Shown in pieces: positions 43,261 to 59,982 of a DNA stretch of 64,000 bases. Both the position numbers and the translations under genes were made by a program. Below the pieces are notes generated by a model. It searched no databases. It was given only the letters and a program-made list of their open reading frames with translations, and had not been told where the DNA came from. The stretch's first letter is position 1. Every line of letters starts with the position of its first letter. Source of the DNA: Pseudomonas svalbardensis (GTDB lineage: Bacteria; Pseudomonadota; Gammaproteobacteria; Pseudomonadales; Pseudomonadaceae); NCBI RefSeq assembly GCF_030053115.1, contig NZ_CP125619.1, positions 1,985,001-2,049,000 on the forward strand. The letters are read 5' to 3'.

Positions 43261-43322
43261 TCGCGAGCAGGCTCGCTCCCACAGGAGAATGCATTCCAAT
43301 GTGGGAGCGAGCCTGCTCGCGA
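43261..43322. repeat. REP palindrome between kdpC and kdpD
   Basis: Perfect 23-base inverted arms (43261-43283 and 43300-43322; core GCGAGCAGGCTCGCTCCCAC) around a 16-base spacer. The same core recurs at 50682-50774 and, with small changes, at the IS110 insertion site. Confidence 0.92.
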
Positions 43323-50681: not shown

Positions 50682-50774
50682 TTCGCGAGCAGGCTCGCTC
50701 CCACAGTGGATCTCGTTTGTACCAAAAATTAATGGTCACTGAGGATCACATGTGGGAGCGAGCCTGCTCGCGAA
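50682..50774. repeat. REP pair (inverted) between two minus-strand genes
   Basis: 24-base arms at 50682-50705 and 50751-50774, perfect inverted copies with core GCGAGCAGGCTCGCTCCCAC and a 45-base spacer. Same element as at 43261-43322. Confidence 0.92.
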
Positions 50775-58764: not shown

Positions 58765-58822
58765 TCCGGAACACCACGAATCCCCTGTGGGAGATTCTAT
58801 GTTGCAGGGCAACCCCGCAACC

Positions 58823-59758
58823 TCAGGCCGGGTGGTATTCGCTCTGATTTTTCATCAGGGCAAATGCCACCCGGCAGAGTTTCCGGGCAAGGGCCACCAA
58901 GGCCTGGGTTTTCGAGAAGCCTCTTGCCAAATACGACTCGTAAAACGGTTTCCATTTAGCTGAGCGACAGGCTGCCATTGCGGCGTTGTAAGCCAACCGG
59001 CGGACTTCCGGATCCCCTTTTTTTGTCAGGTGCCGGGGGCCGTTCTTCTTCCCGGAGTCATCGACCGTAAGGTCCATCCCTAGAAACGCGATGAACGCAT
59101 CACTATTGGCAAAATCACCGCGCATAAAGGTCGTCGCCAACCCGGTTGCAGTCAGTTCGCCAACCCCTTCGATGGCTTTGCAGCGGTCGATATTCTCTTC
59201 AATACCCGCCTCTTTGCTGACCTTGCGCAGCAGTTTCTGAATGGCCTGATCCGCTTGCTTGAAGGCCTTTTGCTGGGCGCTCTGTACTTTCTTCAACAAG
59301 GGTTCATTGGCCCAGCTCAGCATCAGACCGGCATGGTTCTGGATCAGCGTTGCACGTCTGTGGAGCAGGCTTTTCAGCGAGGTGTAGGCCTTGGGTGGTG
59401 GGCTCCAGATCCGCAGTCCGTCTTGTTCGTTCGTCAAATAACGCGCCAGCAGACGGGCATCGCAGGGATCGTTCTTGGCTCGTTGGCCGATGCCGCGGCG
59501 ATAGTTGCTCACCCGATAAGCATCCACGACATAGACCTGGTGCCCCATCGCATGGGCCAGCTCGACGGTGTCCAGGTGGTAGATGTTGGTGGCTTCAACG
59601 GCGATAGCGCTTTGGGCGGGCAATGTTTTAAGCCAGCGTTTGAGGGCTGTTCGATCGTTCTTGATGGTGTCAGTGGTTAGCCGGTCGGAGCGATAGACAA
59701 CTATTTCGGTCTTGGCGATATCGACGCCAACCACCGTCTGCGAAGTAAGGATTGTCAT
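58823..59758 (-). CDS. IS110-family DEDD/serine recombinase
   Basis: 311-residue transposase. The N-terminal RuvC-like DEDD domain starts VVGVDIAKTEIVVYRSD and has AVEATNIYHLDTVELA and KNDPCDARLLARYL. The C-terminal Tnp domain has IEGVGELTATGLATTF, FIAFLGMDLTVDDSGKKNG with the serine expected to be catalytic, and KKGDPEVRRLAYNAAMAA. The frame is intact. Recombination in this family is guided by a bridge RNA from the element's own noncoding end. Confidence 0.93.
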   Translation of the reverse strand: MTILTSQTVVGVDIAKTEIVVYRSDRLTTDTIKNDRTALKRWLKTLPAQSAIAVEATNIYHLDTVELAHAMGHQVYVVDAYRVSNYRRGIGQRAKNDPCDARLLARYLTNEQDGLRIWSPPPKAYTSLKSLLHRRATLIQNHAGLMLSWANEPLLKKVQSAQQKAFKQADQAIQKLLRKVSKEAGIEENIDRCKAIEGVGELTATGLATTFMRGDFANSDAFIAFLGMDLTVDDSGKKNGPRHLTKKGDPEVRRLAYNAAMAACRSAKWKPFYESYLARGFSKTQALVALARKLCRVAFALMKNQSEYHPA

Positions 59759-59953
59759 GACGAATCCTCGGAGCTAGGGTTTAAGAGCTTGTCGGGGTCT
59801 ACCGTTGCGCTGGCTTGCCTCTATCGTCGGTTTTACCGATGAATTCCTTATCGGCGCTTTGGGTAGAAGGGGCGGGATGAGAAGTCTCCCACGGTCTGTA
59901 CTGGTCAGAATCGAGCTTTTAGTCCCGCCCACCCCTTCAAGTCTAAACATACA
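59759..59953 (-). ncRNA. Probable IS110 bridge RNA region
   Basis: 195 noncoding bases upstream of the transposase. On the minus strand an 8-bp stem GGGCGGGA/TCCCGCCC (complement of 59923-59930 and 59870-59877), extended by GAAG/CTTC, closes a 45-base loop. The 5' side of the loop holds AAGCTCG and the 3' side GTGGGAG; these match the left target and the complement of the right target of this insertion. Further hairpins lie nearer the transposase; the donor-binding guides were not resolved. Confidence 0.75.
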
Positions 59954-59982
59954 AGCGAGCTTGCTCCCACAGGGGGATGGTG

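Follow-up and report, generated by a model that had tools for sequence, protein, structure and literature searches.

What directs an insertion sequence to one REP when its host genome offers hundreds of near-identical ones? This question is raised by an element, named here IS-A, that interrupts a REP in a 64,000-nucleotide stretch of Pseudomonas svalbardensis DNA (the window in what follows). The element and its surroundings are organized as follows.

58794..59953, minus strand: IS110 element IS-A, 1160 bp, ends set by an alignment of nine copies.
58823..59758, minus strand: tnp, coding for a DEDD-type IS110 recombinase of 311 aa (PF01548 and PF02371 domain matches).
59759..59953, minus strand: predicted bridge RNA in the 195-nt left noncoding end.
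59954..59955, minus strand: CT core, left edge (copy alignment).
58792..58793, minus strand: CT core, right edge (copy alignment).
59956..59962, minus strand: left target AAGCTCG of the interrupted REP.
58787..58791, minus strand: right target CCCAC of the interrupted REP.

The tnp product contains both the DEDD_Tnp_IS110 and the Transposase_20 domains, above the curated cut-off, and has two matches in the PDB, the transposases of ISCro4 and IS621. With 195 nt of noncoding DNA upstream of tnp and 29 nt downstream, the layout is that of the IS110 group and not of IS1111, and IS-A is, judged by its sequence, an IS110-family (IS110 group) insertion sequence. The host genome (G000), a single contig of 6.36 Mb, contains nine full copies of 1160 or 1166 bp, all with the CT core at both edges and all at one fixed position of the REP (9/9). 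In two of them (L008 and L009) the apical hairpin described below contains a 6-base tandem, TCTGAC; since relatives from G121 and G011 also have the tandem, the seven shorter copies have probably lost it. Decayed remnants of IS-A are present as well (L010, L011 and L012, two right ends and one left end), and the decayed left end, L011, sits at an AGGCTCG REP. A plasmid search gave 1373 records, and the best place in each was below 60% identity.

The left noncoding end contains a predicted target-binding loop with the following parts.

59866..59938, minus strand: target-binding loop, made of stem, left guide, apical hairpin, right guide and stem (predicted from the fold, z -2.59, and a covariance model).
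59910..59918, minus strand: left target guide AAGCTCG, followed by AT facing the core (guide/flank comparison).
59895..59909, minus strand: apical hairpin TCTGACCAGTACAGA between the guides (28-row alignment).
59886..59892, minus strand: right target guide GTGGGAG (shuffles and guide/flank comparison).
59885, minus strand: candidate handshake base A, which would pair with donor position 7 (T), a role taken from the available text on the IS621 structure (PMC11208158).

An 8-bp stem with a 45-base loop had been noticed here in the initial annotation, and it is found as described: on the minus strand, GGGCGGGA (59923-59930) and TCCCGCCC (59870-59877) close 45 bases (59878-59922). Two further observations hold base for base, namely that AAGCTCG on the 5' side (complement of 59912-59918) is identical to the left flank (complement of 59956-59962), and that GTGGGAG on the 3' side (complement of 59886-59892) is the reverse complement of the right flank CTCCCAC (complement of 58787-58793). 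On the minus strand the loop therefore reads stem, AAGCTCG(AT), the TCTGAC..CAGTACAGA hairpin, GTGGGAG(A) and stem; its left guide has the sequence of the top strand of the left target, and the right guide, which follows, is complementary to the top strand of the right target. These are the order and orientations of IS621, in agreement with the guide order of an IS110 bridge RNA that had been claimed for it. The first core base mismatches the left guide (guide AT, core CT) and matches the right guide. An A follows the right guide in 47 genus genomes, as found by exact patterns ending in A, all of which matched.

The 195-nt noncoding end was shuffled 20,000 times with its dinucleotides preserved, and no shuffle contained exact AAGCTCG and GTGGGAG in this order 5-40 nt apart; singly, the two words occurred in 377 and 190 shuffles. 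When each word could have up to one mismatch, the pair appeared in 91/5,000 shuffles, so that the improbable part is the exactness of the guide pair. Folded alone, the target loop is more stable than its shuffles (z -2.59), and the fold of the whole 195 nt is unexceptional by the same comparison (z -1.49). Across an alignment of 28 relatives, both sides have changed at 4 of 19 consensus pairs. All seven hairpin pairs of the consensus are standard in 27-28 rows, with both-side changes in three rows at one pair and in one row at another.

An Rfam scan of the 56-62 kb region gave no bridge-RNA family, and its matches to mir-1420 and Ysr276 were far below the gathering scores. Because no IS110 model was found in Rfam, we built a family covariance model from relatives. 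It contains 28 of the 41 distinct target-loop sequences, hand-picked for variety after G000, G042, G112 and G377 had been excluded; none of them comes from this genome. This model, a check suggested with the initial annotation, puts the target loop at 59866-59941 of the minus strand (74.2 bits, E 7.5e-17), and among the matches listed to E 1 in the 64 kb there is one other, of 12.9 bits (E 0.45). At the level of sequence, the match shows that the loop is placed where relatives have theirs, that is, a shared position and not an independent proof of function. The family model recognizes neither IS621 nor a second element of this host, IS-B; therefore, the case for homology with the IS621 RNA is an anatomical one. 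We infer that an RNA is made from 59759-59953 of the minus strand and acts as a guide.

The sites occupied by IS-A were compared with those left empty in the same genome. The left sites of the nine full copies are AAGCTCG-CT-CCCACA in eight cases and AGGCTCG in one (L008). The expectation that other copies would be flanked by AAGCTCG-CT-CCCAC thus stands for 8/9 full copies and fails for L008. Empty sites of the form GCNNGCNNGCTCCCACA number 667 in the host genome. By version, 62 are AAGCTCG, 481 AGGCTCG, 76 AAGCCCG and 1 AAGCCAG, and the reversed patterns give 0; with these four versions taken together, AAGCTCG has a share of about 11%. Against these four versions, finding at least eight of nine insertions at the guide-matched one has a P of 1.9e-7 (8.5e-7 with the remnant L011 as a tenth event). 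Eight of nine copies are thus at a minority version, and therefore IS-A chooses the version of its guide and not REPs in general. The initial observation is confirmed and its interpretation supported: "programmed to insert into REPs" was right, and can be sharpened to one REP version that is a minority in this host.

The same genome harbors a second IS110 element, IS-B, with a 313-aa open frame 29% identical to that of IS-A and 13 copies (L168-L177, L185-L187). All 13 lie at AAGCCCG-CT-CCCACA. Its left guide, ATGCCCG, matches the AAGCCCG site at 6/7 positions, its right guide, GTGTGGGAG, at 8/8 over TGTGGGAG, and its own left end contains the donor words ACAGTTG (7/7; eighth base unpaired) and AC..ACAAG (7/7). 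From these words, IS-B appears to carry a near-complete set of four IS621-type guides. The REP versions are split between the two elements, with AAGCTCG for IS-A in 8/9 copies versus AAGCCCG for IS-B in 13/13 (Fisher 2.8e-5).

The commonest version, AGGCTCG, with its 481 empty sites, holds 1/9 of the IS-A copies, 0/13 of the IS-B copies and one remnant. Two inverted REP pairs of this version (REPIN-like) are found in the window at 43267-43316 and 50689-50767. The host genome also contains a third, IS1111-like group (L178-L183), with a 376-aa open frame and a noncoding region downstream of it; at the ends of its copies there is a comparable palindromic flank of another type, for example GAAGCCTGCGTTCGGCTGCG in L181-L183.

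Relatives of IS-A at E 1e-60 or better were found in 51 of the 398 genus genomes searched. We scored 145 insertions in 48 genomes, which are 47 of those 51 and G042, from another genus. Outside G000 the sample holds at most about five copies per genome; G181, G285, G304 and G411 were left out, and three of the 148 loci (L013, L037 and L161) were repeat fetches of counted loci. Left guide and left flank agree at all 7 positions in 66/145 insertions; another 46 agree at 6 positions, 13 at 5 and 20 at 4 or fewer, so that in the fixed frame 79/145 have at least one mismatch. Averaged by genome, the left match is 5.65/7, compared with 4.53 (sd 0.12) when guides are permuted among genomes. The permuted maximum is 5.02, and 0/10,000 permutations reached 5.65. 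Frames shifted by one to four bases, within the extent of the cut-out, gave a mean match of at most 2.91. Inspection by hand placed 13 of the 20 insertions with four or fewer matches in G404, G005, G149 and G322, where the guide appears, from its sequence, to be shifted by one base or to have an extra base; no guide shift accounts for the other seven (G235, G112, G234, G207 and G042).

On the right side, the guide is GTGGGAG in 44 genomes, with flanks CTCCCAC in 127/133 insertions, CTCCTAC in four, CTCTCAC in one and a missing flank in one. In the two genomes where it is GTAGGAG, the flanks are CTCCTAC in 6/6 insertions. G101 has the guide GTGAGAG, yet CTCCCAC is present at the two loci looked at. 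Exceptions aside, guides covary with targets among the relatives in these 48 genomes. In the Pseudomonas relatives sampled, the left guide varies with the REP version of the site, and the donor ends and right guide are nearly fixed.

Some of the loci were unusual. In G004 and G160 (L015, L047, L077-L079) the guide is AAGCCCG, but 4/5 sites are AAGCCCC, in REPs of another kind (GGGAGCAAGCCCCC, GGGGGCAAGCCCCC), and perhaps the element has newly met another REP family. The noncoding end of L059 (G112) is only 125 nt long, and the donor-loop motif was not found there. At L132 (G207), the left flank CCCACATTTGGTAGCT repeats sequence from the right of the element, and this could be a tandem or rearranged copy.

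REP versions were counted in 31 genomes, of which seven were excluded, their guide being none of the four versions. The remaining 24 provided 80 sampled insertions, 68 of them usable (none in G207). The 12 that were dropped either lay at a left site outside the four versions or had a right flank that was not CTCCCACA; on inspection by hand, four of these match the guide exactly and eight do not. The version of the guide is used in 54/68 insertions, against 32.2 expected from the version counts (P 2.7e-12, 24 genomes), and in 46/59 against 31.2 once G000 is removed (P 3.6e-7), these P values treating insertions as independent events, a generous assumption. Where the matched version represents less than 30% of the counted sites, a stratum picked afterwards, it is used in 15/27 insertions versus 3.2 expected. 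By genome, 19 are above expectation and four below, the latter being G226, G288, G311 and G160 (one usable site, unmatched). In G226, G288 and G311 the guide is AGGCTCG, but the sampled sites are AAGCTCG in 5/5. This mismatch would permit an rG-dT wobble, a type tolerated by IS621 at position 4 according to the available text of PMC11208160.

Altogether, we put at about 95% the probability that bridge-RNA guides direct IS-A to the REP version matching them. The guides spell the version that most copies occupy and those of relatives tend to follow other versions, and therefore the known RNA-guided mechanism explains IS-A. The recombinase might instead recognize palindromic REPs by itself, the guide-like segments being incidental. 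IS3, IS4 and the other REP-targeting families outside IS110 are not known to have a guide RNA. That such families (IS3, IS4 and others) also target palindromic REPs, as the accessible parts of PMC1525189 report, speaks for recognition of this kind; against it, IS-A and IS-B share one REP position and differ in version as their guides say (Fisher 2.8e-5), and guide-matched versions are over-used. The guide sequence, beyond the site merely being a REP, predicts the version used. Recognition by the recombinase alone is already disfavoured, and we consider it very unlikely. Both segments are REP words, as they would be if they were REP fragments captured by the element and not guides. They are, however, in opposite orientations flanking a conserved hairpin, at corresponding loop places in 28 relatives, and the left one varies with the site; we give such a capture almost no credence.

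Guide and site could also agree through the shared descent of element and host lineages, without discrimination at insertion. On a tnp tree of 47 of the 48 genomes (G005, whose fragment was too short, was omitted), the guide types are clustered, 20 types needing 24 changes versus 34.6 when shuffled, and independent contrasts (43 genomes) are few. At guide position 5, 4-6 pairs agree and none oppose (median p 0.06-0.13), and at position 2 some pairs are opposing ones (mean 0.6 against 2.7). Changes in the guide and in the site are linked to descent, and the contrasts are too few to decide. Between G060 and G226 the recombinases hardly differ, and the guides, AAGCTCG and AGGCTCG, are one base apart. 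What counts against descent as the whole explanation is the within-genome test, which removes host effects and still gives 54/68 versus 32.2 expected, and 15/27 versus 3.2 in the stratum chosen afterwards, below 30%. Agreement by descent without discrimination is thus highly improbable, and we retain guide-directed choice of the REP version.

The donor guides had been left open in the initial annotation. By analogy, applying the published IS621 numbering to the database copy of IS621, candidates can be proposed.

59807..59858, minus strand: candidate donor-binding loop, closed by GCGC/GCGC (homology to IS621).
59842..59849, minus strand: candidate left donor guide AAGGAATT, with 5 pairs, 2 wobbles and 1 mismatch to ATAGAATC.
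59814..59824, minus strand: candidate right donor guide AT-AGAG-GCAAG, discontiguous as in IS621, with 6 pairs and 1 wobble.
59813, minus strand: candidate handshake base C, which would pair with target position 7 (G).
58794..58800, minus strand: left donor end ATAGAAT.
59948..59953, minus strand: right donor end TGTATG, present in 148/148 family loci.

The candidate guides fit the donor ends, which hardly vary in the family. The motif was found in 43 genomes, and in 40 of them the right donor guide is followed by the handshake C. In G101 this base is G, and C occupies position 7 of all five sites; in G004 and G160 it is T, yet C is at position 7 in 4/5 sites, a misfit. The donor guides and handshake are a proposal, with covariation from one lineage. 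Folding 52 complete noncoding ends to a consensus gave a weak structure that includes, from the donor loop, only GCGC/GCGC. The sequence ATAGAATCT lies within 200 nt downstream of tnp in 141/148 loci; the exceptions are five G101 loci, one truncated locus and G042, and in the two G101 loci looked at it lies further downstream. The 3'-end CCCCGACAAGC was rejected as right donor guide because this 3' copy varies (TTCAAG, CTCAAG) and because the conserved ATAGNRRCAAG agrees with the IS621 pattern and lies across from the left donor guide in the same stem.

Two promoter-like boxes are split between the ends of IS-A.

58807..58812, minus strand: -35-like TTGCCC in the right end (uncontrolled consensus match).
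59946..59951, minus strand: -10-like TATGTT in the left end (uncontrolled consensus match).

They come to a 17-bp spacing only in a circle (TTGCCC-17-TATGTT) and have 4/6 and 4/6 consensus bases. By extension from IS621, IS-A would excise as a circle, the junction of which would form a promoter. In the RNA of the left end, the left guide would pair with the bottom strand of the REP and the right guide with its top strand, a second loop would pair with the circle junction, and the recombinase would then join circle and REP at the CT core.

More broadly, we lean slightly towards seeing Pseudomonas REPs as a many-niche landscape, in which IS110 left guides are re-tuned repeatedly by small changes and co-resident types divide the versions (AAGCTCG for IS-A, AAGCCCG for IS-B), the commonest, AGGCTCG (481/667 empty sites of the searched form), being nearly unused by both in this host. 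If true, the element would be otherwise fixed, and its guide RNA would be the part that evolves fast and adapts to the host. The mechanism is already known; what IS-A adds is quantitative evidence from nature that the bases of the guide decide between otherwise near-equivalent repeats. Hundreds of near-identical REP sites one base apart are a built-in choice experiment inside genomes, to which two co-resident elements answer differently, as their guides predict. The naturally evolved guide/target pairs, with their wobbles, single mismatches and shifted guides, offer material for learning the mismatch tolerance of bridge RNAs, and natural re-programming of IS110 guides becomes directly testable in one genus. 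In the open-licence literature, searched by title and abstract and apart from supplements, we found nothing on guides discriminating REP versions within a genome, nor on two IS110 elements dividing REP versions.

The bridge RNA of IS621 from E. coli is known together with cryo-EM structures, and the anatomy of left guide, hairpin and right guide has been described for it (PMC11208160 and PMC11208158, in the parts available). IS-A shares with IS621 the Pfam domains, a noncoding end on the upstream side of tnp, the CT core, CTTGTAT as the start of the right donor, a target loop in which a hairpin separates the left guide from the right one, a REP as target, and -35/-10-like boxes split across the ends 17 bp apart (counted by hand in IS621). 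It differs in its distant sequence (PDB match at E 2.3e-18), in a right guide of 7 nt versus 4, in a left guide that mismatches the first core base, in the unpaired stretch of the candidate right donor guide (4 nt versus 2 nt) and in the sequence of its REP. The elements ISPpu9 and ISPpu10 of P. putida KT2440 share one fixed REP position, in 7/7 copies each and with a 2-bp direct repeat, and, dissimilar as they are, do so like IS-A and IS-B; the accessible parts of this 2006 paper (PMC1525189) describe no guides. ISPpu9 expression has been studied in PMC8450116, from what is available of it. The name ISPpu10 is attached in the database to two of 120 listed relatives of IS-A, at 88% and 65% identity, and IS-A is ISPpu10-like, a likeness by database names and descriptions. 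ISPa11, an IS1111-group element in the P. aeruginosa REP, resembles IS-A in RNA-guided insertion into a Pseudomonas REP, but its noncoding region is downstream of tnp and its strand-match order is reversed, according to the available text of PMC11187229. Bridge or seek RNAs and single cases of natural re-programming were already known (PMC11208160 and PMC11187229, as far as accessible). The same portions of PMC11187229 report natural seekRNA redirection in ISEc21/ISMch6 and ISEc11/ISXne4, with changed guides and correspondingly changed sites; whereas these are single pairs, the IS-A family forms a series across many hosts, for which the available sites were counted.
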